From contig NC_080418.1 in assembly GCF_029873635.1 (NCBI RefSeq), positions 13,743,562 to 13,807,561 of the forward strand: a stretch of DNA of 64,000 bases. Direction: 5' to 3'. The notes beneath the pieces were generated by a model. That model was not told where the DNA came from, did not search any database, and was given only the letters and a program-made list of their open reading frames with translations. Below, piece after piece: positions 1,030 to 62,357 of this stretch. How positions within the stretch are numbered: the first letter of the stretch is position 1; every line of letters starts with the position of its first letter. A program made the translations under genes and the position numbers. This stretch comes from Malania oleifera. Taxonomy: Eukaryota > Streptophyta > Magnoliopsida > Santalales > Ximeniaceae.

Positions 1030-1201
1030 TTCATCGATGAAGGAGTCATGTTCGTTGACGAAGTCCTTTAGAGCCTCGTCGACGAGCAAATACTAAGCAG
1101 GTTAGAGAAATATCCAGAACTTGGGCTCGGCGATGAGGGGATGGCTTCGTTGACGAGTTGTGTGGCGGATTCATCGATGAAGACGCCGCCTCGTCGACGA
1201 G
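1030..1201 (+). promoter_or_regulatory. Palindrome array in solo LTR U3
   Basis: Seven 12-bp sites of the form YTCRTYGAYGAR start at 1030, 1051, 1075, 1126, 1146, 1170 and 1190. Those at 1030 and 1170 (TTCATCGATGAA) and at 1075 and 1190 (CTCGTCGACGAG) are perfect palindromes. Spacing is 21, 24, 51, 20, 24 and 20 bp. The last site starts 32 bp before the TATA box at 1222. The function is unknown; the position suggests a promoter or silencing target. Confidence 0.75.
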
Positions 1202-1266
1202 TTGGACTTGGTCAAAGGCCCTATAAATATCCATTTTGGTTGCTTAGAAGTTAAGTTTCTTCCCAA

Positions 1267-1269
<3 letters not shown>

Positions 1270-1311
<42 letters not shown>
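1270..1311 (+). repeat. (CT)n microsatellite in the LTR leader
   Basis: An uninterrupted CT dinucleotide run lies about 50 bp downstream of the TATA box of the solo LTR. A CT run occupies the equivalent place in the LTR at 60553. Confidence 0.95.
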
Positions 1312-1313
<2 letters not shown>

Positions 1314-3039
1314 ACCTACAGAATTTCTCTCTCTCTCTAAGAATCTTCGTCGTTCGATGCCCGTTTCTAAAAACAGAAGTTCCCGGGGGGATCAGAGGAG
1401 GAAGTTCTACAACTTTAGCGGATCGGATTGTTATTTTGAGGATTTTTGGGTTTTCCCAAAAATCGGGGTAAGAATCTAATTTCAATTTCGATTGAATATT
1501 TGCATATTAGTCGAAATTATAGTAAGATTATATTCTGTGGTTTTTAGGTTTTGAGGATCCCGGGTTGTCGGTTGGATCGTTTTCGTACGAAGTTTTGTTT
1601 CTAGTTTAAGGTAAGGGGAAATTGATTACATCAACATTTTTTGAAAACTAAACCGCTAAAAAGCTAATTTATACTTATATGTATGATTTAACTGCTTATT
1701 TGCTAAATTCTACTGAGTAGAAATGTCGATTTTACGATTTTTCGATTTTTGGTAAAAACAAGAATTTCAGCCTATGATCTCCAAACTTTACAAAAATCAC
1801 TTATTTACATTTAAACTGTAGTAGGAGACACTTAAATCTTTTACTTTTCCAGTTAAATGGTGGTTATTGAACTTTTTATCATTTAGCGGGTTTTGGATTA
1901 AACTTGTGTGATATATATTGAAGTGGAAATGTATGAACATTCTATACTTCATATATATAAGATATGGGAACAGAGTTCCAATTTGTTATACTAAGAATGT
2001 GGAAAATAGAGGTCGGTGATACACTGAGCTGTATCAGTAAACAAAAAGGGATAAACTGAGTGGATAGGCACCAGTTTGAACCCGATGTGATTATCTGAAT
2101 TTGCGAAAATATTGGAATTGCACAGGTTACTATATTTTGCTATAAATTGTATATATGATACTAGACCCACAACTTTTGACCAAAAGAAGTTGAAAGAAAC
2201 TTCAGTAAAAGGGGTTGAAAGATACTTCAGTGCGGGGGTTGAAATAAACTCCTAGAGCTTGGCATCGATGCTGGCAGTACAGTGTAACCATACATAAGAA
2301 ATCAGTATGGGTACGTTAGATGGTCGACCTGCGAGGAGTTAGTAAGGTGCTAGTAAAAATAAACCAGGGGGCGATCAGACTATAAAAGATGCTCGACTTT
2401 GTCTGCACGAACAGGACACTGAGAGGCAATCAGTGCACAACTCGTGCCACGGGGTAAACAGGCAAATTATCATATCAAGCTGGAGGTGTTCTAATAATCA
2501 TACGCATGATTTAAATTCTTGATGTGCAGATAAATGTTATATGTTACAGTATTATAAACAAATGTTTCAAATGTATGAGTTTGTATGAAAATATGCATAT
2601 ATGCAATCATACTGTGGTAACACTTTCTTCCTTACTGAGAGGTGTCTCACCCTATTATACAATCTTTGTTTTTAGGTCCATCAATATGTCGGTCCTACTA
2701 GCTAAAGGGATTGGGGAGATTGTATTTTGGTTTAGTTTACGTAAGCATTCGAATCATGTATTAAACTTAGATGAAGGTCCTTTCTGGAGGCTTGTAATAA
2801 TAGGATTTATTCTTTGTCTAGATTTATGTACTTGTGGATGTATTAGTAAGTTTTGGTATAATTCTAGTAGAAATTCCAATGAATGTTTATATTTTTCCGC
2901 AACATTTACATTGTAATTATGTATGGTTTACACCAGTAGGTCCCTGTTTAGGGCAGGTTGTCTATGTATCTTGAATAGGTACATGTATTTTGTATTTGGG
3001 TTAATGGTGCTGGTCTATATAAAGGGTTGGGTCATTACA

Positions 3040-4922
3040 GTGGGACCTAGTATCAAACAAGGTGGTGATCATTAAAGATGTAGTCTTTGATAAGAAGGCT
3101 CTGGTGAAGCGTACTCAAGAGTTTGATGAATAGAAATAGAAGCCAGAGAGCTGGGGCAGTGATGAACATGTTGTGCAGGTGGAGTTGGAAGCTCAGGGCA
3201 AGGAAAATGATAATGGTCCCGTGGTTGTAGGGTGCTTTAGCTTGAGAAACTAGCAAGTCGACGATGTTCCTATACAGAGATCCAGACGCACTATCAGACC
3301 TCCATCAAGGTATGGTTTGATGAGTTAGTATCTTATGCTTTCCTTGCTTGTTGCAATGATCCAACTTCTTTTCATAAGGCAGTGCACAGCCAAGAGAAAG
3401 ATAGGTTGATGGGAGCGATGATTGAGGAGATGGAATCATTACATAAGAACCTAACTTGGGATTTGGTGAAGCTTCCATATGGGAAGAGACCGATAGGTTG
3501 CAAATGGGTGTATAGGAAGAATGAGGCAATTTCAGAAAAGGAATGAGAGAAATTCAAGGCACGGTTGGTGGCAAAAGGATACTCACAAAAGAAGGGGATA
3601 GATTATGATGAGATCTTTTGTCCAGTGGTCCGACATACTTCTATCAGAGTTGTGTTGGGGTTGGTAGCTTATTACGATCTTCATTTGGTACAAATGGATG
3701 TGAAGACAGTGTTTCTTCACGGTGACTTGGAGGAACAAATCTACATGGTACAACCGGAGGGATTCATTGAACCAGGAAAAGAAAATTTTGTCTGCAGGTT
3801 GAAGAATCTCTTTATGGGTTGAAACAGTCTCCAAGGCAATGGTATAAATGGTTTGATTCGTACATGATGAAGATTGGCTACAAACGGTGTGAGTATGATT
3901 ACCGCGTTTATGTGAATAAACTTGAGGATGGTTCTCTTGTTTTCTTATTATTGTACGTCGATGACATGTTGATAGCTACAAGAGATTTAACTGAGTTGAA
4001 TCAGTTAAAGGACCTGTTGCATAAGGAATTTGACATGAAGGATCTTGGTTCAGCCAAGAAAATACTTGGGATGGAGATTCGTCGAGATAGGACTATAGGG
4101 AGATTATGGTTATCTTAGGGCGGTTATGTGCAGAAGGTATTGGAGAGGTTTAACATAGCTGATGTAAGACTGGTATGTACACCTCTAATGAATCATTTCA
4201 AGTTGTCTACTATAGATTGTCCAAGTTTGGATAAGGAAATTCGAGACATGTCAAAGGTCCCTTATGCTAGTGTTATGGGGAGTTTAATGTATGTCATGAT
4301 ATGTACGAGGTCAGATTTGGCTCATGCGGTAAGCGTGGTGAGCAAGTTCCTCTCTAATCCAGGAGGGTAGCATTGGGAAGTCGTCAAATGGATACTTAGA
4401 TACTTGCAGGGTACATCAGGATATGATATCATGTTCGACAAGCAACAAGATTGTCCTTTAGTTATGAGGTTTGTTGATGTAGATTATGCTGGAGATATGG
4501 ATGACAGAAGGTCTACAACCAGATATGTGTTTACCCTTGTAGGAGGACCAGTATGTTGGAAATCCATGGTACAGTCTCTGGTTGCATTGTTCACGAATGA
4601 TACAGAGTATATGACAGTTGTCGAAACTACAAAGGAAGCCTTATGACTTACTGGTTTAGTCAGAGAGCTGGGGTTACAACAAGATGGTGTGGTGCTGCAT
4701 TGTAATAGTCAGAGTGTCATTTACTTGGCGAAGAATCAGGTATACCATGCTAGGACCAAGCATATTGATGTGAGGTTCCATAGAGTTCGGGAATTGATTG
4801 TTTCGGGTGAACTTGTGTTGGAGAAAGTTCACACATCTGATAATGCAACATATATTCTGACCAAATCAGTTACTTCAGAGAAGTTCAAGCATTGCTTGGA
4901 CTTACTTCATGTCTCCAAGTGA
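3040..4922 (+). pseudogene. Ty1/copia reverse transcriptase and RNase H relic (element A)
   Basis: This continues the copia reading broken at 999. After the linker (VVIIKDVVFD, RRTIRPPSRYG), the reverse transcriptase shows [48 protein letters not shown], then [12 protein letters not shown] and the catalytic YVDD (3954-3965). RNase H follows with VDVDYAGDMDDRRSTT, NDTEYM, CNSQSVIYLAKN and [11 protein letters not shown]. Together these copy the retroelement RNA into DNA. There is a frameshift near 3812-3819 and stops at about 3544, 4116, 4368 and 4644. The terminal TGA lies at 4920-4922, and a polypurine tract and 3' LTR follow. Confidence 0.93.
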
Positions 4923-5010
4923 TAGAAAGCAGACATAACCAACCAAGCGTTTTTAAGTTCAAAGAGAAACAGTTCATGCTTTTAAGATTCTCCTAAGGGT
5001 CGTATAATTG

Positions 5011-5023
5011 CCAAGGTGGAGAT
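5011..5023 (+). other. Polypurine tract of copia element A
   Basis: CCAAGGTGGAGAT lies directly before the LTR start TGTTATTTA. This is the usual place and composition of a copia plus-strand primer. Confidence 0.8.
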
Positions 5024-6358
5024 TGTTATTTATAGCTCTTATATTTCTATTTTTATAAGCAAAGAAGGAAGGAGATAAAACATAAAGGGCGCAGCATAGC
5101 AGGACTCGTCAACGAGGGGCCCATGCTCATCGACGAGGGAACAACAGAGGTTCATCGATAAAGGTTCTGAAGTTCGTCGACGAACAATTACCGAGAGCAG
5201 GAATTTTTCATATTTATGGCATCGTCAAAGAGAGCCCTGTATTCGTCGACAAAGGGTCTTTTTGGTCTTGTTGACGAGGTCCTGTGTTCGTCGACGAGAG
5301 GCACCTGGGCTGCGGCAGTTTTTCTGAATTTTGAATTTTTGAACGTTGAGTGGTTGGGCAAACGGGAGGAAACCTCCGAGGAACTTCTATATATGTGATC
5401 TGGGCATATTTTGAGAAGAAAGATGATCATTAGATAAGTGTACTGTGTACATTTTGATTTCCTTAGTGAAATTTGTGTGTCATTGCTTCCATGGATGTAT
5501 GCTTTGTCGAACCACATAAATCTTTGTGTTGATCTTGTTCTGGTTGTATGTGTGTTATTTACATTCACTTGTTGTTGTTTATTTCGTTGTGCATCTTCAT
5601 TATACGATCCAAATCACAACAATTATAACAAAATATTAAATGAAATTTTATACTGTGACATTATGTACGATTCAAGTGAGATAAACTCTTCGCCCAAGGG
5701 TTTACTGAGTAAGATGAGTTTCGTGATAGGTATCAGTTGTAACTGCACTCAGGCTAAATGGGTAAAGTTACATAAGGTATCAGAGCAAAGGAGCTTTACA
5801 TGTATGAGCGTGTAAACTCTCCAATCCTCGGGAAACTCTTGTTATAAATAATAGTGTATGTGAATTGAATGCATTATGATTGTGGATATGTTATGGTGTG
5901 ATCTCTGATGGTGAATGTACTATGGTAATACGTGTGATATATGTGTATGCGGATTTCTGTGTTATGGATAATGATGTATGTGTGAGTATAGTCTATAAAT
6001 GTATTAATAGTTGTTGTTGTTGATTAACAAATGGTTATATTTTGTATACATTAAATTCATTGGTCACACACTGATGATAATTTATTATCACTTACTGAAA
6101 GGTGTTTCACCCCATCATTATCAAATATTTTTCAGATGTCCTGTGGAATATGACAGGAATCAGAGTAGCGCAGTGGAAGCGTGGGTAGAATTAGAAATAG
6201 TAGTTTAGATTAATTATTAAATTTTTTATTTATGGTTTATCTTAGAATTTCTAAGGATGTATTAAATTTGTTATTGAAGATATTCTTGTAATAAAAGGTT
6301 TTAGTATTCCGATATATAAATATTGAGGTTTTTGGCTGTGTAATTATTCTAAATAACA
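5024..6358 (+). mobile_element. 3' LTR of copia element A
   Basis: A 1,335-bp LTR starts TGTTATTTA directly after the polypurine tract and ends TAAATAACA, a perfect 9-bp terminal inverted repeat. It contains the palindrome array at 5105-5298 and a TATA-like TATATAT at 5388. Although it closes a copia element, its right half (from CACACACTGATGATAATTTATTATC at about 6067 to TTTTTCAG near 6134) resembles the gypsy-type LTR at 22921-25201 read on the minus strand. It therefore looks like a mosaic. A GGTATCAGAGC string at about 5777 is internal and is not taken as a primer-binding site. Confidence 0.85.
5105..5298 (+). promoter_or_regulatory. Palindrome array in copia A LTR
   Basis: Eight sites related to YTCRTCGAYGAR start at 5105, 5126, 5151, 5173, 5220 (weak), 5242, 5267 and 5287. 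Spacing is 21, 25, 22, 47, 22, 25 and 20 bp. TTCGTCGACGAA at 5173-5184 is a perfect palindrome. The array lies about 100 bp before the TATA-like sequence. Its two-by-four layout matches the gypsy-type LTRs at 1000 and 60553. Confidence 0.75.
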
Positions 6359-6392
6359 CTTCGGACCCCAAAATCGGGTTCACGGCGTTACA
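6359..6392 (+). mobile_element. End of an older gypsy-type LTR hosting copia A
   Basis: The segment from CTTCGGACC to GGCGTTACA resembles the closing bases of the gypsy-type LTRs here (for example AGGCGTTACA at 22911-22920 and CATTACA at 3033-3039). Copia A therefore seems to have inserted close to the end of an older gypsy LTR. The rest of that LTR would lie left of the window. Confidence 0.45.
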
Positions 6393-7290: not shown

Positions 7291-7592
7291 AAATATAATT
7301 ATATATATATATATATTAACCAAATCAAACAAAACTAAATAAGAAACAAATCTAAACAGACCTATAAAAAAATAAAATAAAATCAACTAACATTAAAAAA
7401 TCTAAATCAATCAAATGGAAATCGAAAAAATGAACTAATGACGAAAGGAAATCAGACTCAATCTATTCATTTAAAAGATGCCAAAAAAACGTCATAAAAA
7501 ATGTTATTTTTTATAAATAACATTATTATTATTATTTTTTTCTAACGAAAAAATGAGTCGAATTAATGCCTTCCCCATTGCCGGTGAAAAAT

Positions 7593-7634
<42 letters not shown>

Positions 7635-8229: not shown

Positions 8230-8239
8230 TGTAATTGTT

Positions 8240-8454: not shown

Positions 8455-8464
8455 TGTAATTGTT

Positions 8465-15906: not shown

Positions 15907-16473
15907 GCTAGCTTATGATGGCCATAAAAGTCTCCTCCCACATTGCCATTGGAGTAGGAAAAAAAAAAGAAAAAGAAAAAGAAAAAGAAAAAGAATAGAG
16001 AAAGAAAGAAGTGGAACAAAAGAGGAGAGATATAAAAGAAAGGAGGATAAATATTTTGTACAATGCCAGTTCCACATTACTTTATAATTCTTCTTCAAAA
16101 TAGTGAAGTTATGATCTCATCCGCTCGTGAAATATGTATATCCGAACTACGTAAAATTTTTGTAAGTTATTTAATTTTCTATTTATTTTCCTACATATTT
16201 TATAATACGTTATCAGTACGAGACTCTAACCAACTGAGTTATTTCTTTAATTTTTATTTATTTTATTCATTTATTGTAAGTTTTACCCCACAAGAATATA
16301 ATATTCTCCAGAAGAGAATATGATTTTTTTTTTAAGTTTAAAAAGTACCAATCTCTAGAAGAGATGGTAAGATAGACCTCCTGGAAAGGTTATATATATA
16401 TATATATATATTTAAATCTTCCAAAAAGGTAGTCATTTTGAAGAGACAATATATTAAAATCTCTCGTCTATAT
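15907..16473. other. No gene; simple repeats
   Basis: Includes an (AAAAAG)n-like tract at about 15960-15995 and (TA)n at about 16390-16412. The open frames on both strands here show no family features. Confidence 0.6.
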
Positions 16474-18240
16474 TGCTAGATGTCCCAGCCCCAAGAGTCT
16501 ATAGTTTAGAGGGGGGTGAATAGACTCTTTTCGCGTAATGTGTATTTCTCTACAAAATAAAAACTCTTGGCAAAAAACAAAAAATTATATCACAATATAA
16601 GTAAATGTAAACCATGCACAAGACAAATAAAATAAAGAGAAGGGCAGAGAAAATCAACACCACTATTTTTATGTGGTTCGGCACCAAGCCTACGTCCACG
16701 CCTTAGGACCAACCCAAGGATTCCACAATCCACTAAGGAACTCCTTCACCAGCGCAAAAGTCTTACAATTCGGAAACAAATCCCTACCACGCTCACAAAG
16801 AGACTTCACTCGGGAACAAATTCTTCCCCACTCACAAAGATTCTCTTCGGTTCACAAACAACCTTCACCAAACGGTTCACAAAAAGCTTTTACAAGAAGA
16901 TGATGAAAATACAGTATAATGCTCCTCAAATGAGAAAATATTAAATATGAAACAAATCTCACACTATCTCTCAACTAATGAATCAAACACAATTAAAGAG
17001 CAAAAGAAAATGAGCACTTGTGAATGAAGAATAACAATGCAAAGTGGTAGGTGCTTAGGTTTTGGTAAAAAAAGATGTTTTTTACTAAGAATAATCAAAA
17101 GCCTTCAAGACAATGTTAATATAAGTCTAATAGCTTGTATTTATAACCCAAGAGTCAAAGGAGTCGTTAACTAGCCGTTTGGGGGAAGAAAAGATATTTT
17201 ATTTGGTAAACTAGCCGTTTTCAGCCCGTTAGCGTCATTTAGCCCGTTGGATTCGTCGACTAGTCCCCTACACTCATCGACTAATCACACACCGCAACTT
17301 GTCGATGAATCCCCTGTGTTCGTAGAAGAGTACCCTGAATTAGAAAAAGTCATCAACATGAAAGTTGCAGCATTTTGTCTTAGCTTTCTAGGAATACCAA
17401 GATCGTCCTCTTTGAATTTTTCTAGCAAAAGAATGCTCAAAATACCGAAAGGTATTCAAGAATCAAGGCTGCACAATGGTAGCGATGATTGCTTTGTTTT
17501 TCCTTCTCAAAAAGCGTTTTAATGACTCAAAATATTGTTGTACAAAAGTATATAAAATATATTAAGTCTAATAAAGATTAAAACTTGTTCAAATGAGTTT
17601 CCTTTTGAATATAAGATATCTTGATTAATAAAACACGTTTGAAAACTCATTTTGATATCTTATATGCTTAGTATGACATTTTATAAATATACTTGACTTT
17701 ATTTGAACCTTTAAGACTTAAAACTTGTTTTAACACAATCGGGACTAAGTATAAAAATGTTCTTAAAACTAGGATGTTAAAAACTTGTCCCTTTGAAAAT
17801 ATATTTGAGTTTTAGGATTCATTTGAAAAACTATTGTTTTAGCTTAGTGCAATCCTATGAATATTGAGTTTGTGACTTTAGTGCAATCCTATATACTCAC
17901 GTGTCCTAACATGTATGCATTTTCTCAACTCTTACTCAAAAATCATGCAAGAAACACACTCGCAAGAGTTACAAAACATACTACCTCACACAACCCTTAT
18001 TACAAATAATTTTACAATTAAGCTTCCTTTGGTTGTGCTTGGGTCCTTCCGAGTACGTGTCCATTTGATCTTTCCTTCTTGACGTCTACTTGGTCCGATC
18101 TTTGCCTTCAATCCAATAATTCATGTACGAGTACTTATACTAAACATGGTTTGCAAAGATAGGAAAACACTAGGAACAACATATATGTTAATATCATCAA
18201 AACACATTAAGCAATGATGGTATAGCCACTAAGGCTAACA
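16474..18240 (-). mobile_element. Sirevirus-like copia LTR, copy 1
   Basis: On the minus strand the LTR starts TGTTAGCCTTAGTGGC at 18240 and ends near 16474, aligned with the end of copy 2 at 53859. The preceding minus-strand sequence, CATCATAAAAAATGAGGAGAA, corresponds to the CATCATCAAAAAGGGGGAGA type of polypurine tract found in Sirevirus/Maximus elements. U5 carries GGCGTGGACGTAGGCTTGG and GCCGAACCACATAAAAA, copia LTR landmarks. A TATA box (TATAAAT, plus coordinates 17139-17145) lies about 107 bp beyond a four-site palindrome array. The frames at 16673-16903 and 17247-17522 are LTR sequence, not genes. Confidence 0.75.
17252..17330. promoter_or_regulatory. Palindrome quartet in Sirevirus-like LTR copy 1
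   Basis: Four sites related to YTCRTCGAYGAR start at 17252, 17273, 17298 and 17319 (spacing 21, 25, 21). They lie just upstream of the TATA box in the minus-strand transcription sense. The spacing equals that of the first half-array in the copia A LTR (21, 25, 22). Confidence 0.7.
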
Positions 18241-18960
18241 TTCTCCTCATTTTTTATGATGTCTAACCTATTACTAATTTACTTAATTTTTGCATTTGTA
18301 TTTATACTAATCATGACTTGATATGCAAAGATAAACTTACCTAAAACCACTAATAGGTTGTTATTATCAAAACAATGCAATTAAGCTCACATAGTCTCTA
18401 AGGCTAACATTCTCCCCTTTTTGATGATGACAAACCATTAGTGTTCTCCTATAGGGTGAAATTTAAAGCTCCTCCTTAATTTATGCATATTCTAGAATGA
18501 TACTAAAATATGCTCTCCTTTACTTTATGCATATAAGGTGTAAAAATATTTAACTTATTTTTCATATCTATTAGATCTTTAAACATGCATACCATAAAAC
18601 AAAAAGTTTATGTAAGATAAAACAAGTAAGCAATTGAAACTTTCATATTATCTTTGAATTACCACATGCATACCCCACATGCATTTTCCATGCATTTCAC
18701 TTCTCCTTCACATATAACACTACAGAACATTCTCTTAACAAAGAGGACACCAAAATATCTTCTCCCCCTTTGATCATCATCAAAAAGAGAGAGGCACAAT
18801 TCATTTTACCTAAAAATGATTTCTCCCCCTTAATCTAAGATTCCATGGTGGTGAGGTGAGTGTGTGCTAAACACATATACCAAAATTTTGGGTGCTAAAC
18901 TGTTGACTTTGGTGCAATCCTATAAAAATCTAGCCAAGGTTATTTTCCACACCCTTATAA
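18241..18960 (-). mobile_element. Sirevirus-like 3' internal region with two polypurine tracts
   Basis: Directly outside the LTR lies a purine tract (minus strand). After 169 bp a second junction of the same kind ends at 18409 (GCTAACA, then CATCATCAAAAAGGGGAGAA on the minus strand). Beyond it is non-coding sequence that is colinear with 57504-58000. No env-like or pol reading was found before homology fades near 18960. Confidence 0.6.
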
Positions 18961-20076
18961 ATACTCACATCTCGATTGAGAATTGGTTACACCCTTTCTA
19001 AACTCTAATTATTTAGTTTCTATAACAATAATTAAATTCAACGATTTTATTTCAAAATCAAAGATGTCTCCCAAAAAGAGAAAAGTTAGTTCCTCCTAAG
19101 AACATTTTCTCCATGTTTAGAGAGACATTAGATCTAGGTTTGTATTGGATTTAGATAACATGTAATAAAAAAATTATATTGAAATTTGTCCAAATTTCCT
19201 AAAATTCAAATATAAGGTCTGAAATCCATATTCCCAAACATTGCGTATTACCTCTCAAATCTTTTTTTTGTTAATTGCGGGTAATTAACTTGCATGAGAC
19301 TGGATAAATAATTGTATGATAATGTAAATTAATAATTATATATTATCATGATGAGGGTGACATATTACATCAATAATTTTAATAGTTAATTACTCAATGG
19401 TGAAGAGGTGATTCAAACATTTCAAGACCATTGGGAGAGGCAACAAACTAAACCATTCTCTACAAAATTTCAAACATTGCTAGTTAATAAAATAAACAAG
19501 TCTTGCTTAGTTGTTCCATGAAGGTACTAGTTACTATTTTTCCAATTCAAATTATACTTTGATATTTAAGTAAAAATAAATAGATCAATTAACTTGTTGT
19601 CTAGATAAATTAATTAGTCAGTAAAAATCCCCAAAAGGGTCTCGAATACCTCCATAATAAGGGATGCGGATTCTACCTTCATTCATTATGCTCGGGGATA
19701 TCTTGACTATAATATAATGTGCAGTTCAGTTCTGAGCCTTTGGGCAAGAAGAAGAGCTCCTTCTATCACCCAAATAATAATAATATAGTTACTTAATAGT
19801 GGTTATGAGATTTCAAGAATTCCAAGGAGTTTCTCTGAGGTTTGTAAAAAAGACACAAACCTTCCTTGTATTTTGCAAAATGACAAGTCTTTTGAGGGAA
19901 GATTCTTACCTTTTGTCATACTTTAGTGAAGGTCATCATTTTACTTTCTTTCTCACTTCTTTTATAATTAAATATGAAAAAGTAAATTTCTTAACATTTT
20001 TTAATTCCAAATGGAGACTTAATATTATCTACCTAAAATATTTATATTATGAGATCAAGTGTATATATGTTCGTTG
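18961..20076. other. No gene seen
   Basis: AT-rich DNA. The open frame at 19799-20077 has no recognisable domain and abuts the truncated gag at 20077, so it is not called. Confidence 0.55.
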
Positions 20077-23130: not shown

Positions 23131-23298
23131 TCTACTGACGTAAGTTTTACGACATATCACACACAGGATAAAACAATTTATAATAAATCTACTAACGTAA
23201 GGTTTACGACATATCACAAACAATATAATGCAGTTCAATTACTTCTACTAACGTAGGTTTTACAACACATCACAGATAATTAAATTTACATTGTTATA
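23131..23298. repeat. 57-bp tandem repeat, three copies
   Basis: Units start at 23131, 23188 and 23244 with TCTACTRACGTARGTTTTAC (minor variants) and continue to ACATATCACA. They lie inside LTR A. Confidence 0.85.
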
Positions 23299-23592
23299 GC
23301 CACACAGGCCTTCGATATCAGTATAGACTTTATACAGAGTTTCTACATTGAGCATCACTACTTCAATTAATATGCCACACAGGCCTTTAACTTCAATATA
23401 GACTTCACACAGAGTTTCTATACTGAGCATCACCACTTCAATTTATACGCCACACATGCCTTTGGTTTCAGTATAAACTTCACATAGAATTTCTATACTA
23501 AGCGTCACTACTTCAATTTATATGTCACACATGCCTTCAGCATGAGTATAGACTTCACACACAGTTTCTATACTAAGCATCACTACTTCATA
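23299..23592. repeat. 75-bp tandem repeat, four copies
   Basis: Units start at 23299, 23374, 23449 and 23524, an exact 75-bp period. Each opens GCCACACAGGCCTT or a variant and contains TATAGACTTCACACAGAGTT and GAGCATCACTACTTCA. The array is inside LTR A and has no spacers, so it is not CRISPR-like. Confidence 0.92.
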
Positions 23593-23633
23593 TTTCTCAA
23601 TCAAATACAAAATCTAACTTACCATAAAATAGA

Positions 23634-41700: not shown

Positions 41701-44700
41701 TTTGGATGTTTTGCGGTTTCTGTACCTCCCCCGTAGCTTCCGATGCATTACTTTCAACTTCTTTATCCTTTTTACAGACTTTATGATTCATCAATGCATC
41801 TGAGACATCCTTAAAAGAAAGTGCATCTTTACCATACATTATGGTGGTTACAAAATGCTCATAAGGATTAGGCAAGGAGTTTAGCAAAATAATAGCTTTA
41901 TTTTCATCTTTAATTTCTTCATCTAAATTTAACAAATCAGCCAACAGTTTGTTCATAACATTCAAATGATCGATCATGGACGTACCTTCCTTGTATTTGA
42001 ATTGAAAGAGCTTATTTTTCAAATGCAACTCATTTTGGATGGTCTTCATCATGTATTTGTCTTCCAGCTTCTTCCATAGCGTCTTGGCTGTGTTCTCTCA
42101 TGACAGCATACTTGACATTTTTGCGAGGAACAGTCGGATTGTCCTGCAAGCTGTTCAATTCAGTTGCTTCCAGTCTACCTCCTTCATGTCATCAGGTTTA
42201 TCTTCAAACGTTATGTCTAGTCCTTGTTGATTAAGGACATCCATAACTTCACATTGCCACATTCCAAAGCTATTACTTCCATCAAATTTTTCGACTTCAA
42301 ACTATGTTTGAAACTGCAACGGTTGTAGCTTTGGAACCGCTTGTACTTCTGTCTTCACTTGCCATCCTTCTTTAAATCAAATATATGGCTCTGATACCAA
42401 TTGTTGGGAGCGTGGTTGAATAGTATCTGTATACATGAATAGTAACATATACGTAAACAGTAACAAATTCAACTTTATCTGATACCACTTATTTCATACC
42501 CAATTCAAGATCGAATTGATATAGAGAGGCAATGAAGAACAAGCCATACAAATACAACGCCGAAAATTTTATGTAGAAAACTCTCCAATTTGGAGAGAAA
42601 AGCCACGGAGCAGGTAGAAGCAATTCACTAATTCAAATGAGGAGAATACAACAATACAAAAGAACTCTCAAATTCTCTCTCTACACTCAAATACAAAATT
42701 GGCTAATAAGCCTTCAAAATACAAGGAATTCTAAGTTTTTCTTTGGGATGATTGAAATGAGATGGGATGAACCTATTTATAATCAAAAAACGAGTATTGT
42801 AGTAGTACTGTAGTAATAACAACTGCCACCCCAAATTTACTCCATCAACCATCTTCTTCAATCTTCTCTTTTCTTTTCCTTATTATTCTTTTGTCGTGGG
42901 GCCCACAAATTGGTGGACTCTACTTACCTTATTGTTCTCATGTTAAATTCATTTGTAACCAGCTAGGGGCTTATGATATCGATGCTCCAGCTTGAGGGGA
43001 AGTTTGCTAGTTATTTTGGTTGTTACTGGTTATTTTTGGTCATTTAGCATGTGTTATTGCTTTTGGTAGTAGGCATGAGGAAGTGAGGGTATTGTGGCCA
43101 TTGTTACGTAGTTGAAATAATTATGAATATAGGGTGAGACCTATCATTGCATTTTAGGTCTTTCAATTCATCAAATCTTCAGCCGAAATAATCTCCAAAG
43201 TGCACCAAATCATATATATGGTTTAGCTTGGGGAGTGTTAACTGAGTTAAAAGGGCATATACATCATCTGCATATATCTTCAATAGAATATAAGAAGCCA
43301 GTATTCCTGAGAAGCTTCTCGCTCTGCCCTCTCTCTCCCCCCTTCTCTCTCCTTGTAATAGCAATGAAGGAAGAAAATGAATTCTTGCTTTCATCATGTT
43401 GCATGAAAACATGTAAACACCAGGAAAAAAATCTCCAGCTGCACCATTTCCCGTGCTAATCTTTTGTCTTTTGCTGTTTTCAATTTCAGTAACTGTGAAA
43501 GGATAATATAATTGTATTCTGGTGAGATCTGTAATTTAGAGCTCCAATGAATAAGTTCAATAAACACACATTTCTTGGCCAAGTATAAATGTGGTGACTA
43601 CAAAAAGCTGCATTTGAGGAATAATAGAAAATTACTGATATAAGGATTGATCATGATGAGATTTTCTTATTTTCTGTTGACATGGCACGCCAAGGGTTTC
43701 TATTTCGGAAGGCAGTTGAGCACTATGAGAGGTGTTTCTACACTGTCTGAGCTTTTGAATTGAGGCTCAAGAAAGTGACTCACCTTTCTTTCTATTCCGT
43801 GGTTCATGGATTTGATGTTTCTTGAACTGCTGTTGGAATTTTGTGGTTATTGGGATTGTTTATTCAATTGCATGTTGAGCCAAATGATTTTGATTTGATT
43901 TATCATGTTGCAGCTTATATTCCGAGATTTTAAAACATCAAACGTTTTGCTAGATGAGAACTTTAATGCAAAGCTCTCAGACTTTGGACTGGCTAAGCAA
44001 GGACCAAGCGAAGGGCTCAGTCACGTTTCAACATCTGTAAGTTTGGTTATCTGTGTATGAAATCTGCTTAAATTTTGGGGGATATGACTCCCAAGGCATT
44101 GGGATGTAAATTCAATTGATTCTGCACTTGAAATATGCTGGGCGAAAATCCAAAGGATAATGCAAATAAAACCATGAGAAAGTCTCTGGTTTTATTTGTT
44201 GAAGCTGATTGAATGATCTTGAGCTGACTTTAGAGGTGTATGCTCATGGTTGGACTGATTGCAAAGCATTGGATAACTTCCTGAATAGTGAAAAATAGTA
44301 CCTTTTCTGTTGAATGATGGGTTATGATCCTTTGCTTGTATTTTGCAGATACTGATCCCTGGGTCCTCAATTTGTAATATCTTAATCACTTGCGCTGTTT
44401 TATATTGTTTTTGAATTTAGGTTGTTGGTACAGTAGGTTATGCAGCACCGGAGTACGTTCAGACAGGCAGACTAACTGCAAAGAGTGATGTTTGGAGCTT
44501 TGGTGTGGTTCTGTATGAACTTATAACTGGGAGGCGAGCATTGGAGAGAAACCTACCTCGGAGTGAGCAGAAGCTCTTGGAATGGGTGAGACCTTATGCA
44601 TCGGACTCAAAGAAATTCCACCTCATTGTAGACCCACGACTAGAAGGGCAGTATTGCATAAAAGCAGCTCAGAAGCTTGCATCATTGGCCAACAAGTGTC

Positions 44701-53858: not shown

Positions 53859-55538
53859 GTTAGTCGTCATAGCCCGGAGTGTATAGTCTACAGGGGGGGT
53901 GAATAAACTCTTTTCGTGGAATGCGTATTTCTCTACAAAATAAAAACTCTTGGCAAGATACAAGAAATTATATCACAATATAAGTAAATCTAAATCATGT
54001 ATAAGACAAATAAAATGAAGAGAAGGGTAGAGAAAATCAACAATGATATTTTTATGTGGTTCGACACCAAACCTACGTCCACGCCGTGGGACTAACCCAA
54101 GGATTCCAAAATCCACTAAGGAGCTCCTTTACTGGCGAAGAAGCCTTATAACTCGGGAACAAATCCCTACCCACTCACAAAGAACCTTCACCAAACGGTT
54201 CACAAAGAACATTTATAAGAAGATGATGAAAATACAATATGATGCTCCTCAAATGAGCAAATATTAAATACAAAGAAAACCTCACACTATCTCTCAAGTA
54301 ATGAATCAAACACTATTAAAGGGTAAGAGAGAATGAGCACTTGTGAATGAAGAATAACAATGCAAAGTTCTAGGTGATTAGGTTTTGGTATAAGAAGATG
54401 TTTTTCACTAAGAATGATCAAAAGTCTTCAAAACCATGTTAATACAAGTCTAATAGCTTGTATTTATAGCCCAAGAGCCAAATGAGCCGTTGGGGGAGGG
54501 GGGAGGAAGAAAAGATATTTTATTTGGTACACTAGTTGTTTTCCGCCCGTTGGAGCAGTTCTGCCCGTTGGACTCATCGACTAGTCACACACTGCCACTC
54601 GTCGATGAATCCCCTGTGTTCGTCAATAAGTGCTCTAAATCAAAAAAAGTCATCAACATGAAAGTTGTGGCATTTTATCTTAACTTTCTAGGGACACCAA
54701 GATCGTCCTTTTGGACTTTTCTAACAAAAGTTATGCCCCAAATTTCAAAAGGTGTTTAGGAAATTTGATAGGTGCATAACATAGGTTTTGAACCAAACCA
54801 AAAGGCCTTTTAATCACTTGAAAAGTTCTTGGACATAAGTATATGAAAAATATTAAGTCTAATAAAGTTTAATACTTGTCTAAATGAGTTTCCCTTTGAA
54901 TATAAGATATCTTGTTAATAAAAACACATTTAAAAAATCATTTTGATATCTTATATATTTGTATGTCCTTTATAGAAAAATATACTTGACTTCTTTGAAG
55001 CTTTAGGACACAAGACTTGTTTTGATAAAATCGGGACTAAGTATGATGATGTTCAAAATATCAAGATGTTTGAAAACTTGTCCCTTTAGAAAACATATTT
55101 GAGTTTAGGATTCATTTAACAAACTCTTAAGTTTAACTTTGAAAACATGAAGGTTGAGTTTGTGATTTTAGTGCAATCCTATAAACTCATGTGTCCTAGT
55201 ATGCATATGCAATTTGCTCAACTCTTGCTAAAAAATTATGTATGAAACAAAACTGCAAAAGTTACAAGATATAATACCTCAAACAAACACCCATTACATA
55301 AAATCCAACATTAAGCTCCCTTTGGTTGTGCTTGGGTTCTTCCGAGTACGTGTCCATTTTATCTTTCTATGCGAACATCAACTCGGCCCGATCTTTGCCT
55401 TTTGACCAATACTTTATGTATTCGACACTTGTACCTGTACTAAGCACGATATGCAAAGATGGAAAACATTAGAAATTACATATAGGTTAATATCATCAAA
55501 ACACATAAACCATGACAGTGTAGCCACCAAAGCTAACA
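53859..55538 (-). mobile_element. Sirevirus-like copia LTR, copy 2 (complete)
   Basis: 1,680 bp with ends TGTTAG...CTAACA. U5 landmarks (GTGGACGTAGGTTTGG, GTCGAACCACATAAAAA on the minus strand) are as in copy 1. A TATA box lies at plus 54461-54468 and a three-site palindrome array at 54573-54630. A purine tract (minus ACATCATCAAAAGGGGGAAG) follows at the right edge. Confidence 0.82.
54573..54630. promoter_or_regulatory. Palindrome array in Sirevirus-like LTR copy 2
   Basis: Sites start at 54573 (CTCATCGACTAG), 54598 (CTCGTCGATGAA) and 54619 (TTCGTCAATAAG), spacing 25 and 21. They correspond to sites two to four of copy 1. The first site is absent. Confidence 0.65.
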
Positions 55539-55664
55539 TTCTTCCCCCTTTTGATGATGTCTAACATATTAAGAATTTCCTTAATCTTTGCATTTGTGAT
55601 TAAACTAACCATAGCTTAATATGCAAAGATAACTCCATCATTGATGCACTTAATGTCTTAATTT
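55539..55664 (-). mobile_element. Polypurine tract and short internal stub of copy 2
   Basis: Matches 57335-57430 and 18241-18330, then ends where the LINE sequence starts. Confidence 0.65.
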
Positions 55665-56091
55665 TTTCACACATAGTCGGTCCCAAGCCCAGGTTAAGGA
55701 AGAGGGTTGCGTTAGGTAGCTGACAGCCAGCGTAAAATTTGTCAGATCACTATGATATGAATCCTTACCAAATATTTGCTGGGGCGTCCCCTATGAGCAA
55801 CACGTTGCACTTGAACCACCCAGGTGTAGTGAAAGTGGGTGAGGGTGGGCTAGGTCGTCGCCCCAAAGCGATGCGCTGTGTCGGCGCCTGGGTACGGTGT
55901 CAAATATGCGAGAGTTCCTGCATCATTCTGGACGTGGGCAGGTAAAGAAATTAGTTTAGGAAACTAGGATTAGATTAGCAACTTGGAATATAGGGACACT
56001 TACGGGTAAAAGCATGGAAATTTTGGATACAATGATTAGAAGAAGAATTAATATAATTTGCCTTCAAGAAACTAAATGGGCGGGGGAGAAA
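55665..56091 (+). mobile_element. 5' end of an RTE-type LINE with endonuclease start
   Basis: The leader (GTCGGTCCCAAGCCCAGG, GGGTTGCGTTAGGTAGCTGA, GTCGGCGCCTGGGTACGGTG) leads into a 41-codon frame at 55969-56091. It reads IRLATWNIGTLTGKS and NIICLQETKWAG, the opening of the apurinic-type endonuclease of RTE LINEs. The Glu of QETK is a catalytic metal ligand. Coding text stops abruptly at GEK where copia LTR sequence begins. LINEs usually lose their 5' end on insertion, so a 5' fragment points to a later deletion or recombination. Confidence 0.82.
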
Positions 56092-57334
56092 TTAATGAAT
56101 CAAACACTATTAAAGTGCAAGAGCGAATGAACACTTGTGAATGAGGAACAACAATGCAAAGTGCTAGGTGCTTAGGTTTTGGTATAAAAAGATATTTTTC
56201 ACTAAGAATGATCAAAAGCCTTCAAAACCATGTTAATACAAGTCTAATAGCTTTTATTTATAGCCTAAGAGCCAAAGGAGCTATTAACTAGCCTTTGGGA
56301 GGAAGAAAAAATATTTTATTTGGTAAACAAGCCGTTTTCCGCCCGTTGGAGCAGTTCTGCCCGTTGGACTCATCGACTAGTCACACACTGCCACTCGTCG
56401 ACGAATCCCCTATGTTCATCAATGAGTGCCCTGAATCAGAAAAGGTCATCAATACGAAAGTTGTGGCATTTTGTCTTAACTTTATAGGGACACCAAGATC
56501 GTCCTTTTTGGACTTTTTTAACAAAAGTTATGCTCCAAATTCTAAAAAGTGTTCAGGAAATTTGATAGGTGCATGACATAGGTTTTGAACCAAACCAAAA
56601 AGCCTTTTAATCACTTGAAAAGTTCTTGGACAAAAGTATATGAAAAATATTAAGTCTAATAAAGTTTAATACTTGTCCAAATGAGTTTTCCTTTGAATAT
56701 AAGATATCTTATTAATAAAAACACATTTAAAAAACCATTTTGATATCTTATATATTTGTATGTCCTTTATTGAAAATATACTTGACTTCTTTGAAGCTTT
56801 AGGACACAAGACTCGTTTTGATAAAACCGGGACTAAGTATGAAGATGTTCAAAATACCAAGATGTTTGAAAACTTGTCCCTTTAGAAAACGTATTTGAGT
56901 TTAGGATTCATTTAACAAACTCTTAAGTTTAACTTTGAAAACCATGAAGGTTGAGTTTGTGATTTTAGAGCAATCCTATAAACTCATGTGTCCTAGTATG
57001 CATATGCAATTTGCTCAACTCTTACTCCGAAATTATGTATGAAACAAAATCGTAAGAGTTACAAGATATAATACCTCAAACAAACACCTATTACATAAAT
57101 TCAACATTAAGCTCCCTTTGGTTGTGCTTGGGTTCTTCTGAATACGTGTCCATTTGATCTTTCTATTCGAACATTGACTCGGCCCAATCTTTGCCTTTTG
57201 ACAAATACTTTATGTATTCGACACTTGTACCTGTACTAAGCACGATCTGCAAAGATGGAAAACATTAGAAACCAAATATAGGTTAATATCATCAAAACAC
57301 ATAAACCATGATAGTGTAGCCATGAAGGCTAACA
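56092..57334 (-). mobile_element. Sirevirus-like copia LTR, copy 3 (lacks U5 end)
   Basis: Closely similar to 54298-55538 of copy 2, offset about 1.8 kb, and ends CTAACA at 57334. The about 430 bp that should complete the LTR on the left are replaced by the LINE. TATA box at plus 56255-56262. Confidence 0.8.
56369..56426. promoter_or_regulatory. Palindrome array in Sirevirus-like LTR copy 3
   Basis: Sites start at 56369, 56394 (CTCGTCGACGAA) and 56415, spacing 25 and 21, the same as copy 2. Confidence 0.65.
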
Positions 57335-58738
57335 TTCTTCCCCTTTTTGATAATGTCTAACCTATTAAGAATTTCCTTAATCTTTGCATTTGTGATTATA
57401 CTAACCATAACTTAATATGCAAAGATAAGCTTACCTAAAACCACTAATGAATTGTTATAATCAAAACAAGACAATTAAACTTACGTAACCTCTAAGACTA
57501 ACAATCTCTCCCTTTTTGATGATGAAAAACCATTGATGTTCTATATAGGGTATGATTTAAAGCTCTCCCTCACATTATGCATATTCTTAAATAAGACTAA
57601 AATATGCTCCCCTTTACTATATGCATGTCTAAAGTTCACTCTCCCTTACTTTATGCATATAAGACATAATAAAACATTTAACTAGATATTACATATCCAT
57701 TGGAGCTTCACAATGCAATTCATAAAGTAGAAAGTTCATGCAAGATAAAACAAGTAATAAGTAAGATGAACTTTCATACTACCATATGCATTCTACCCCT
57801 CATGCATTTCACTTCTCCTCCACACATAACAACAAACATCTTATTCCTAACATATAGGACACCAAGTTTCAAAAAAGTTTCTCCCCCTTTGATCATCATA
57901 AAAAAGAGACGTGCTATTTAAAAAAAAAAAAAAAACTCCCCTTTAAGATTTGTTTCATGAAGGTGAGGTGAGTATGTGCTAGACACATACACCAAAATTT
58001 TGGGTGTTAAACCATAATATTAGAAAAGCCTAGATTGGCTTCCTTCCAAACTCATGAATTGATTTAGAATTTAAACCATTTTTTGTAGATCAATCATTCA
58101 ATGATCATTCAAGAATGGACATTTTCAAAATAAGCACAAAATATTCATACTTGTAATATAAGCATGGTAAATGTGTCCAAACAACTTGGTAAAGAGCATG
58201 TGTATAATTTAGAACATTCTAGAAAAATTCAAAGGATTATTGAAAATTTTGCATGTTTTCCAATATAGCATACGGTGTTTAGGATTCAACATGCACCGCT
58301 ACCTATTCAATTATTCAACATGCATTATAAAAATATTCATAAAGTTCAACCTGCATCGAATGGATTTCAAGTCATGATCATTTAACATGCAAAGACTTAT
58401 AATTACCAAAGAATCGTCATGCAAATAATCTTTTTATCATGCATCATTTTTAAATATTCATTAATGACAATGTGCATGAACTAGTCTAAGTGACCACTTA
58501 AGGTTAAAACACTAAGTTCAACTTGGTCACCATACTGATACTACATAAGACTTTCAAAAGTATTTAGAATTTAAAAATAAGTCTTATGAAGTCATAATTT
58601 CAGTCGACTAGCTAGCATGTATGTCTAAAATAGATCAATGAATTCAACATGCAAGACTTTAGTTAACTACCAGCATGCAATGAACAAATCTGCATCGGCC
58701 AAGCATATGACGTTCAAATCAGGCATGCAGATCAGTAT
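57335..58738 (-). mobile_element. Sirevirus-like 3' internal region with two polypurine tracts
   Basis: A purine tract lies at the LTR edge. A second junction of the same kind ends at 57503, 169 bp away, exactly as at 18240/18409. Beyond lies non-coding DNA colinear with 18430-18900 to about 58020, then unassigned sequence rich in CATGCA words up to the gypsy LTR at 58739. Confidence 0.6.
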
Positions 58739-59472
58739 TGTAATAACCTGAACCTGAAAATTAAAAGAAAATAAATATAAAATAAATAAATAAAGGGAAA
58801 TAAAAAGAAAAATTGGATTGTGGCTGGTTCAAGAGAAAACCGGCGATGGTTTCTGGAGAGGAGAGAAAAACGGCGACGATTTTTTGGAGAGGAGAGAAAA
58901 CTAGCGATAGCTTTCGGAATTTATCGCGGGGCGGTAATTGGGTAAACGATAAATCCGGGATGGTTAAAGATAAAACTGGCGATGGTTTTCTAGAGGCCTG
59001 GGGAAACAGACGACATTTTTTTGCGTAGAGGTGGCTATAAAGAAAGTCATGCGAGCATTTCTCAAGGAAATCAAAATTTCATTTTCTTTTTCTCTGAAAC
59101 CTAAGGTTCTTCCCTTTATTTTCTTCGATTCCTGCCCCCATTAGAGCTTATTTTGATGATCCAGAACCACCACAAGGTTCGTGGGATCATTCTCTGCAAA
59201 GCTACCAGAGCAGATCGTTGATTTGGGATTTTGGAGTATAATCCCAAAATCAGGGTAAGTGAGATATTTTAAAGTTTTATTATTAAAATGAAGTATATGG
59301 AACATATGAAGTATTAAATGAGTATTGTTTTGAGATTTGAGTAAGTTGAGATTTTTGGAATATAGGGTCTCATTTCCTATTCGATTTTAGGCAGAATCTC
59401 GAGGAGCAGGTAAGGGGAAAATATTATAGCAGCTTTTCAATTAATTTTCAAACCGGTTAAATTCAAGTATAT

Positions 59473-59515
<43 letters not shown>

Positions 59516-60552
59516 TATGTTTATTTGAATGGGTAGACTTTTGGATAAAAAATGATTAGAATTAAATATGTGGTATTTGGGAAAAATCATGTGGTATGGA
59601 AATAACTTTCATAATTAAATGGTTGCGAGTACTGCTTGATAATGTTTTACTGTTCGCTTGTGGCTACTGTTTGGATTGTAATTCTACTTGGTTGTGATTA
59701 TTGTTCAATTGTGAGTATTGTGTGATTGTGAATACTGTGGTAAATGTGAGGATGTGCTTGGATGATTGATTATGCATAGGATGTGTAATGTAGTTGATAT
59801 AAATTGCGATATAGTGTTGGCAGTGGTATGAGGAGGTCGTTATATCGTACCTGATATAAATTGCCATATAACATTGGTAATGGTATGGGAGGTCGTTCTA
59901 TGAGAATTTATATTAAGGGGGTAAAACATTGGCAGTGAAATGAGGAGTTTGTTTAACCGATTTACTATGAACGGGGCTGTGTGTGTGGATTTGTAACCTG
60001 TGTGGTTGCGGTGCCTATGTGGGCCACAATATATTACTATGTGGTGTTAGTCCTGTGTGGACCATGTACTCTGTGAAGGTGTTAGTCTTGTGTGGACTAG
60101 TCTTGTGTGGACCGTGTGTTTTGTCTGGATGAGAGTCTTGTGGGACATTATATTTTGTATGGATATGAACCCTATGTGGGTATGAATGAAGACTGTGTGT
60201 ATATCCCTATGTGGATGTGAGTCTTGTGTGGACTGTATCACTTGTGTTGTTATAGACCCTTTGTGGGTGTGCATGGAATATGTGTGTATCCTGTATGAAT
60301 TGGTTGTGGTATGTGTATATACGTGGATCTCTATGAAATGATGACATTGGATACGTATAACTATAATTACATAAGTATTTATGGTAAAGTAGAATTCTCC
60401 ACCCGAGTGCTTGTTGAGGAAGGCGAGTGCCTTGGTAATTTTCTATTGGTACTAGAGCAGAGGGAAGCTACTTGTATGGGTAGGTAAGCTTCCCTATTCT
60501 CGGAGATTTTGCCTAGATACATAACTCGATGGCTTACTGAGTAAGGTGAGTG
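58739..60552 (+). mobile_element. Gypsy-type LTR D, interrupted by element C
   Basis: Starts TGTAATAACCTGAACC. It contains three 30-bp repeats (units at 58832, 58862 and 58893), a TATA box (TATAAAG near 59034), donor-like GTAAGT (59255) and GTAAGG (59410), (TA)n at 59478-59513, a 57-bp duplication (GATATAAATTGC at 59796 and 59853) and a degenerate CTTGTGTGGAC repeat field at about 59990-60290. It stops at CTTACTGAGTAAGGTGAGTG, where element C starts. The open frames on the minus strand are repeat artefacts. Confidence 0.7.
59990..60290. repeat. Degenerate short tandem field in LTR D
   Basis: Many variants of TCTTGTGTGGACT and CCTATGTGGGT follow one another with irregular spacing. Confidence 0.7.
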
Positions 60553-62357
60553 TGTAAGAACCCGAATCGTGATGAGTGAGTTTAAATAATAAAGAGAAGG
60601 GTAAAATTGGGATTTGAGCAAGCTTCATCGATGAAGTCATAGTTCGTTGACAAGGTCCATGTTTTTCTCATCGATGAAATTCAAAAGCTCGTCGAAGAGG
60701 AGAAGCCAAGAGATTTCAGGAAACCGGGGATCTCAGGCTCATCAACGAGCTGACTATATGGCCTCGTCGACGAGGATGCCATTCGTCGACGAGGGCGGCC
60801 GGGTCAAGGGACTATAAATATTAGTTTCATTGCTTAACCATTAAGAAATCTCAAAATCCTCTCTCTCTCTCTCTCTCTCTAGATTTCTTCGACGTTTGTC
60901 GCTGGAATCGTAGATATGATGTTACTACGAGGATCACGGAAGGATTCTCTACAAAACCTATGGATCGGAATCCCGTTTCGGAGATTTTCAGGTTTCGGCT
61001 TAAAATCGAGGTGATGCTCGATTTTCTTTTCTGATCTTGTAGTTTGGTAGAGGACGGAGTTGTGAGTATATTCTGTACTGTGTTTTGTAGATTTTGAGAA
61101 CTCGGTTCATTGTTTAGGAGTTGTAGAGTTCGGGATTGGTCTTTTGGGGGAAAGGTAAGGGAATACAGTTTATATTGGTTAATTTTGAAATCAGACTCGG
61201 TAGAACTTTGGTTCACGGTCCTGTGTGTGTTTTGGCTACTCATTTAGGGGAATCTGACAGGTAAAATTATAGGTTTTTCATGTTACAATTTTGAGAAAAG
61301 GGGGTATTGGTTTGTATCCCTGGTTTTGTTGAAAATCGTTGGTATATTGTGATTTATACTATGTATTAGGGATGGCCATGCCTTGACTTTGTTTTAAAAT
61401 GTATGTGATTAGAAAATATGATTTTCGGAATACCAAATGGGTGTGATATGTTTGGTTATATGAGCATGCATGAATGTGTTATGTTGAAATGCAATAGGAA
61501 CTAGGTTCCGAATTGTTCCAGGTACTGAAAGAGTGTCTGACTCTATATCCGAGGGCGTGTGTTTATTGCCTGCCATGTTGGCAAGAGTGTCCGGCTCTAT
61601 ATCCGAGGGCATGAGCCTATATCGATTGATCACCGAAGGGTGTGGATCCACCAGATAGCGTCAGTATGATGCCATGGGAATCTGGGACTAGCCATGTGCC
61701 GGTGGCGTTGTGTGTCACAGGTTGGCAAAGGGCGAACGCCGGATATCATGGACTGGCTATGGGCCGAGGGGTGTGATGACACCCTGTAGATCATGGGTGC
61801 ACGTATGCGTGTGTGTGCGTGTATGCACTGTACTGGAACTGTATTGTGAGAATACTAGAATTACATTAATTGTGTTTATTTGCTGTCATGAAAACAGTCG
61901 AATGCCACACACTAATATAACCTGTGTTCGCCTTATTGAGATGTGTCTCACCCTTACTGTACGTACATTTTTATAGGTCCTTCGAGTAACCAGAACTAGC
62001 GTCCTAGAGTTGGGAGCGTAGTGGCCGGTGTACTGCGAGTAGCGCTTGGGTAAGTGCTAGGACTTTTGTTTCGCGGGTAGCTGTTTTGGGGTATATTGGC
62101 ACCCGAATGTACGTTTTGTATGCATAGAGCTAGGACTCCGTTTTGTTTTGTATAGACTTTGGTATGGTACAATACTTGTATAGAATGACCTTTTTCGTTA
62201 TGTATATAATTACGTATGGATGCGTATAGGGTGCCTGGTAACCCCACGGGGTTGGACCCTCATTCATTATGCTGTATCGTTGTTATTTGTATGATATAGG
62301 GACATGTTAGGTTACTAATTCACCCTTGGGTCCCATTTCCTGGTTTAAGGTGTGACA
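60553..62357 (+). mobile_element. 5' LTR of Ty3/gypsy element C
   Basis: 1,805 bp, TGTAAGAACCCG to GGTGTGACA, followed after three bases by a primer site and 0.3 kb later by gag. In order it holds the palindrome array (60624-60793), TATA box (60813-60820), CT run (about 60859-60880), donor-like AGGTAAGGGAATAC (61153-61166), CTTATTGAGATGTGTCTCACCC (61932-61953) and acceptor-like TTTTTATAGGTCC (61968-61980). It is inserted in LTR D. Confidence 0.88.
60624..60793 (+). promoter_or_regulatory. Palindrome array in gypsy element C LTR
   Basis: Sites start at 60624 (TTCATCGATGAA), 60643, 60667, 60688, 60738, 60763 (CTCGTCGACGAG) and 60782, spacing 19, 24, 21, 50, 25 and 19. The last starts 31 bp before TATAAATA, compared with 32 bp in the solo LTR at 1000. 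Confidence 0.75.

Follow-up and report, generated by a model that had tools for sequence, protein, structure and literature searches.

A spaced array of palindromes upstream of the TATA box in copia and gypsy long terminal repeats of Malania oleifera

The usual view is that promoters of long terminal repeat (LTR) retrotransposons evolve inside their own families, and the question raised by the locus described here is how LTRs of two superfamilies, Ty1/copia and Ty3/gypsy, come to bear the same ordered array of 12-bp palindromes. The locus is a stretch of 64,000 nucleotides of Malania oleifera (NC_080418.1:13,743,562-13,807,561), called here the window and numbered from its first letter; the published assembly of this species comprises 1.5 Gb in 13 chromosomes (PMC10199050). 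The original prediction, made from the letters of the window, was that six LTRs carry a near-palindrome in spaced groups upstream of the TATA box, and it offered as explanations the exchange of a promoter module, convergence on one host factor, or a methylation target. Our analysis favours the first of these: the array is probably one promoter-proximal LTR control module, exchanged between superfamilies and bound by a dimeric host factor.

The six arrays of the window are real. At up to one mismatch the motif was found 28 times, against 1.08 expected and a maximum of 4 over 100 shuffles, and 27 of the 28 matches fell inside the six named arrays (Table 1). These arrays belong to three host groups, not six. 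Their observed/expected CpG ratio, taken as a proxy for the published CpG-island criterion, was 1.22-1.55, against 0.57 window-wide. A copia element at 37878-42929 (minus strand, LTRs of about 0.5 kb) had no palindrome site and is a useful negative control. The spacings of array 2 read 21, 25, 22, 69, 25 and 20 bp when up to two mismatches were allowed. The distances to the TATA box first given, 31-32 bp and about 100-107 bp, are correct when the last site's start is taken as the reference point; Table 1 lists the values counted from the array's end.

A search of the 1.494-Gb genome for motif pairs at a distance of 17-27 bp gave 64,862 occurrences, and the reversed-pattern control gave none. 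The spacings of the 100 listed pairs, which are the first of the 64,862 and all lie within the first 2.1 Mb of contig C1, were 19 bp (9 pairs), 20 (31), 21 (26), 22 (3), 24 (19), 25 (11) and 26 (1). Distances of 19-21 or 24-25 bp thus account for 96 of them, and 17, 18, 23 and 27 bp are unrepresented, a distribution that is not flat. A pattern scan on viral contigs was set aside as chance, because nearly all listed matches had spacings of 18, 21 or 24, all divisible by three, which is what repeats within coding sequence would produce.

A contiguous stretch of 200 kb, read in tiles and chosen because many of the listed pairs fell there, contained 35 array rows corresponding to 32 separate arrays, three of them divided in two where a gap, an insertion or the end of a tile intervened. 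The complete unit is about 190 bp long and consists of eight palindromes in two blocks of four, spaced about 20-25-20-47-20-25-20 bp with the 47 bp between the blocks, and located upstream of the TATA box. The recurring groups of about 21-25-21 bp split by some 50 bp were confirmed as four-site blocks, with the amendment that the complete array has eight sites and that arrays 3-5 of the window are only half arrays. On a layout score out of 96, 28 of the 41 rows scored (six from the window and 35 from the 200 kb) reached 80-94, and 40 shuffled segments reached at most 61. Rows scoring at least 80 mostly showed spacings of 19-22, 24-25 and 19-22 bp inside each block, with 44-51 bp separating the two blocks; when a site is lost in a row its placement is forced and the spacings deviate. 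The other 13 rows, scoring 58-78, include the three half arrays and several cut arrays. Extrapolation from the 32 arrays and 23 listed pairs of this stretch, itself picked for its pairs, gives a rough genome total of about 90,000 arrays. Between L141:7615 and L142:111 (such labels name the genome pieces read, with the position inside the piece) about 2.3 kb of inserted DNA, beginning in the central spacer, apparently separates the two blocks of the array of a gypsy 3′ LTR.

The hosts were assigned by the domains that adjoin the arrays. The element with array 2 is Ty1/copia, since it has an RVT_2-type pol with the integrase before the reverse transcriptase: an integrase match lies at 537-992, upstream of the reverse transcriptase and RNase H remnants, and 3414-4776 shares 65% DNA identity with a copia element at 38661-40032, whose frame matches RVT_2. 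A second copy of this family was found in L127; judged by eye, the family is without a Sirevirus-type junction. On the gypsy side, L141 has between its arrays at 530 and 7615 the Pfam domains gag, RVT_1, RNase H and integrase with SH3_Tf2-1, and L130 and L132 resemble it, these pieces also having the protease and the integrase after the reverse transcriptase. Downstream of array 6 lie gag (62818-63282) and protease (63736-63999), the only gypsy domains of this element that fall inside the window, and both are of the same kind as in these three pieces. These gypsy hosts may be chromoviruses of Del/Tekay type: SH3_Tf2-1 was found, and a tail resembling a chromodomain was judged by eye. The solo LTR with array 1, located within the copia integrase region, appears to be of gypsy type by its layout only. 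It was also possible to see two like arrays about 3.9 kb apart (L126:9152 to L127:3245) flanking a remnant of gypsy gag without any match to pol, so that apparently non-autonomous elements bear the array too.

Arrays 3-5 belong to one LTR family on the minus strand, called Sirevirus type because of its multiple polypurine tract (PPT) octamers and an inverted repeat at the PPT/3′ LTR junction, both of which are Sirevirus markers (PMC2829016). The element of array 3 has two exact and two one-mismatch copies of the octamer AGGGGGAG in 18405-19100, and that of array 5 one exact and seven one-mismatch copies in 57300-58700; none occurred in the tested LTR parts of either element. The inverted repeat was seen in the array 3 element only (25-bp arms, 21 of 25 positions identical, the right arm 37 bp inside the LTR), and array 4 was assigned only through the 93% DNA identity of its LTR to that of array 5. 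The domain search of the window found no coding region adjoining these LTR copies.

Samples from the whole genome were taken for both superfamilies, 20 pieces each out of 150 listed, the 150 being the best-scoring of 33,600 RNase H candidates for copia and of 30,875 SH3_Tf2-1 candidates for gypsy. When 630 bp downstream of copies of the array 2 family's RNase H were read, on 13 contigs, 19 of the 20 pieces had the array, 14 full (scores 80-92) and five partial (68-79), with 40 shuffles reaching at most 61; L165 had none (55). Downstream of the SH3_Tf2-1 matches, where 901 bp were read and absence means absence from that stretch only, ten of 20 pieces had the array, nine full (79-93) and one partial (L174). 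Sharing across copia and gypsy is thus borne out by domains, by domain order and by these counts, and is not restricted to one superfamily: gypsy LTRs and one non-Sirevirus copia family have the array, and Sirevirus LTRs have it in half form.

The distance to the TATA box goes with the element family. In 26 of the 35 tile rows the box starts 8, 10 or 18-20 bp past the array; in 11 of the 19 array-bearing copia pieces it lies 87-91 bp past it, the others having 44-132 bp or no TATA box found; in the Sirevirus LTRs it lies at 104-106 bp. Considering that this distance goes with family and that most linkers differ between families, recent chimerism is unlikely to account for the sharing. Nested insertions are common locally, the solo LTR of array 1 inside a copia element being an example, and they could be thought to have produced chimeric LTRs or misclassified elements. 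The hosts were nevertheless assigned by protein domains adjoining the array in many copies, each superfamily with its own diverged array, and we give an explanation by recent chimeras or misclassification almost no credence. Single-linkage clustering with flanks was dropped, nested insertions having merged 38 of the 41 arrays.

Beyond the palindromes, the arrays have in common a directional box, TACCGAGAG, located 4 bp past site 4 and scored at up to two mismatches. It was found in array 2 of the window and in 14 of 17 other copia rows, at the same offset in 16 of 28 gypsy or unassigned rows and, by reading, in all nine full gypsy arrays fetched later; a random 9-mer at a fixed offset would match it in about 0.13% of cases. 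The orientations of box and TATA agreed in 21 rows and were opposed in none, 20 of the 41 rows not being callable. In the comparison of linkers between copia and gypsy, the central one was shared and most others showed no clear likeness. Short linkers recur within some arrays, and the first Sirevirus linker toward the TATA box, CACAGGGGA in two of three copies, has the same nine bases as the first linker of three of the nine full gypsy arrays (L170, L171 and L184). In a tree of 40 modules the copia arrays formed one group beside the gypsy groups. Taking into account that copia and many gypsy arrays share a directional box at one offset, which the palindromes alone would not require, exchange is the best supported of the three original explanations. 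The shared spacing and central box, together with the identical linker in the case of the Sireviruses, suggest one module exchanged between superfamilies, and a common origin with exchange seems more likely than repeated invention.

It could instead be that copia and gypsy lineages each evolved the array for one abundant host factor, with no sequence exchanged. The lack of significant likeness in most copia and gypsy linkers would agree with this, as would the fact that published Sireviruses bear other palindromes at the same place (PMC2829016), so that arrays can arise repeatedly, and that transposon cis-regions are often repeat arrays, sometimes palindromic (PMC10760457). Such convergence would nevertheless have to produce twice a complex character, eight sites with the same succession of spacings and a 9-bp box that agrees in offset and orientation, and the linker common to Sirevirus and some gypsy arrays speaks against it as well. 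We consider it unlikely, although it is an alternative to be kept in mind.

A tally of 318 sites in 42 arrays, with entry requiring a match at 9 or more of 12 positions, showed what the motif is. The non-CpG bases were 95-100% constant, and at the six CpG bases 10-24% of sites carried a change; joint changes at both positions of the central CpG were almost absent (odds ratio 0.06). Dyad covariation inside the sites was not found, so that the purine/pyrimidine (R/Y) degeneracy does not reflect compensatory change. The motif originally described stood, and its degeneracy arises from CpG decay of YTCGTCGACGAR, with a genuine two-fold choice at the outer Y and R only; the core is TCGTCGACGA.

The decay was followed in LTR pairs, which are identical at insertion. 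In three clean pairs the arrays had transitions at 34 of 158 CpG bases versus 18 of 416 other bases, and in the next 1.1 kb downstream 63 of 271 CpG bases versus 193 of 2,922 others were changed; array CpGs thus decay after insertion about as fast as those of the adjoining 1.1 kb. Of the five pairs examined, L132/L133 and that of L145, the latter not proven to be one element, were left out as unaligned outside the array; with all five, the array changes were 50 of 250 CpG bases versus 44 of 701 others. From this mutation pattern, inserted copies are probably methylated in the array as elsewhere. Because array CpGs decay like their neighbours while the non-CpG bases stay constant, the reading as a pure methylation target is weakened, and the constancy of the motif suggests selection in the source elements. 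The same data bear on the idea of a functionless by-product, in which a 20-25-bp unit grew in tandem and then underwent CpG methylation and decay. Short linker repeats within arrays and the strong CpG decay are what tandem growth would leave; the near constancy of non-CpG bases across families whose linkers differ, and the preservation of the eight-site layout and of the TATA distances, make it highly improbable.

The outer bases of partner sites 20-21 bp apart covary, C with G and T with A, after collapse to nine families (odds ratio 9.75, p=0.007). Before this collapse the odds ratio was 6.1 for partners but 2.0 (p=0.016) for non-neighbours, so that relatedness plays a part; after it, non-partners were at about 1, and a second non-partner set gave 0.3 (p=0.23). 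This covariation is a lead out of several tests, with relatedness only partly corrected, and the first block behaves as though its unit were a pair of sites instead of one site. Complementarity of partners beyond the outer bases was 44% versus 25% at offset 1, with no clear trend at offsets 2-6.

Such pairing could also act in RNA, the sites of the transcribed U3 region forming hairpins that serve RNA dimerisation or give rise to small RNAs, with selection on the RNA. The partner covariation would fit this, as would the folding of eight arrays (z of -2.2 to -5.9) and the small RNAs that maize Sirevirus palindromes attract (PMC10760457). Strong folding is, however, expected of any self-complementary repeat; no covariation was found within sites, at loop-closing bases or for site pairs 5-6 and 7-8; and RNA structure would leave the family-specific TATA distances and the directional box unexplained. 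We regard it as quite improbable.

The palindromic LTR motifs mentioned for Sireviruses in the original prediction correspond to the RM boxes, palindromic repeats in the U3 upstream of the TATA box with at least eight copies per element (PMC2829016). The Malania arrays resemble them as clusters of many CpG-rich palindromes at that place within a CpG-rich region, and the TCGA centre of the Malania motif is also that of the repeats of Vitis (CGGTCGACCG) and Tnd-1 (ACAATCGATTGT) (PMC2829016). Twelve of the 13 published Sirevirus repeats have a CGG-CCG core, Tnd-1 being the exception, and the repeat was termed Sirevirus-specific and absent from classic copia (PMC2829016); in contrast, the Malania core lacks this signature, and its hosts include gypsy and non-Sirevirus copia elements. 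A fixed spacing rule and a central box characterise the Malania arrays, and neither is given for RM boxes in the sections of PMC2829016 available to us. Counted within the LTR, full gypsy and copia arrays have eight copies and the Sirevirus LTRs of the window three or four.

In maize, one palindrome, CACCGGACNNNGTCCGGTG, occurs in Copia and Helitron elements, likewise two transposon classes in one genome; it is another motif in other classes, and no fixed layout is given for it in the portion available (PMC10760457). The cis-region palindromes of maize Sireviruses form LTR clusters to which many small RNAs map (Bousios et al. 2016, as cited in PMC10760457 and PMC5311732); as cited there, that work concerns Sireviruses only, and its proposal is about RNA structure and small RNAs. 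The main text of the 2019 Malania genome paper contains neither "palindrom" nor "motif", and the available part of the 2023 paper no "palindrom". Among the titles and abstract beginnings listed, in a coverage that leaves out most subscription journals, no such array in gypsy LTRs was reported, and the literature matches listed for the motif letters and for shared copia/gypsy promoter motifs held nothing on one. A feature of this kind is thus known already; what looks new is the Malania variant with its layout and host range.

The control module that we favour would consist of two four-palindrome blocks around a spacer that often bears the box pointing at the TATA. It would have passed between superfamilies in the Malania lineage, the parts beyond the palindromes being common, and selection would have kept it in the lineages carrying it. 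A dimeric host DNA-binding factor may sit on the palindromes, a promoter-proximal platform being the most likely role; two sites about two helical turns apart would lie on one helix face and perhaps be bound as one unit. Binding would help to start transcription of the element, and methylation of the many CpGs after insertion would switch the module off. A bolder version, tentative and held with a little less than even confidence, is that the full cassette of eight palindromes and box moved between Ty1/copia and Ty3/gypsy, and that one host factor reading palindrome pairs on one helix face controls at least three lineages as a shared on/off switch.

Several observations weigh against exchange of one bound module. 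Ten of the 20 gypsy pieces had no array in the 901 bp (scores 53-59); the three sampled pieces whose open frames reach at least 895 amino acids (895-1,505) all belong to this group, so that gypsy elements can manage without it; the array-bearing gypsy copies sampled had open frames of only 99-313 amino acids. Twelve of the 28 gypsy or unassigned rows have no box at the expected place, two of them having it on the other strand, and these rows include both gypsy-type arrays of the window and the subfamily of L126:3944, L129:1217, L132:1905 and L133:443. Outside the central linker, copia and gypsy show no clear likeness in most linkers, and the module tree, being unrooted, gives no direction of exchange. 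The pair unit is a weak idea, with covariation in site pairs 1-2 and 3-4 and not in the second block. As a separate observation, the youngest-looking gypsy copies do without the module; the array-less pieces include L173, L178, L179, L183 and six others.

Table 1. Positions of the arrays, their TATA boxes and their host elements in the window (PPT, polypurine tract; TSD, target site duplication; PBS, primer binding site).
Feature	Position	Strand	Remarks
Solo LTR, host of array 1	1000..3039	+	TSD GTGGG at both ends; copia domains either side
Array 1	1030..1201	+	7 palindromes, spacings 21-24-51-20-24-20 (up to 2 mismatches)
TATA box of array 1	1222..1228	+	20 bp past array end
Remnants of copia reverse transcriptase and RNase H, 5′ of array 2	3547..4919	+	
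Copia PPT and 3′ LTR, host of array 2	5013..6392	+	PPT at 5013, LTR start 5024
Array 2	5105..5298	+	8 sites, spacings 21-25-22-48-21-25-20; TACCGAGAG 4 bp past site 4
TATA box of array 2	5388..5394	+	89 bp past array end
Sirevirus-type LTR, host of array 3	16472..18409	-	LTR start at 18409
Array 3	17252..17330	-	Half array, 4 sites, spacings 21, 25, 21; TATA box (17140-17145, minus) 106 bp downstream
Array 4	54573..54630	-	Half array, 3 sites seen, spacings 25, 21; TATA box at 104 bp
Array 5	56369..56426	-	Half array, 3 sites seen, spacings 25, 21; TATA box at 106 bp
Gypsy 5′ LTR, host of array 6	60553..62357 (end approximate)	+	Followed by PBS TGGTATCAGAGC
Array 6	60624..60793	+	7 palindromes, spacings 19-24-21-50-25-19
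TATA box of array 6	60813..60819	+	19 bp past array end

Two other features of the window were recorded. Between two Sirevirus LTR copies, 55633-56089 reads by eye like the start of an endonuclease of a long interspersed nuclear element, and at 23294-23595 there is a tandem repeat (75-bp unit, four copies, 83% match) that contains no motif match.

If the exchange of this module is true, retrotransposons can swap control regions across superfamilies, here at an extrapolated 10^5 or so copies in one genome, and a joint activation or silencing of copia and gypsy elements would be explained. The strict layout of the array would offer a ready assay to find the factor of the host and a way to study how unrelated elements are recognised together by a plant.

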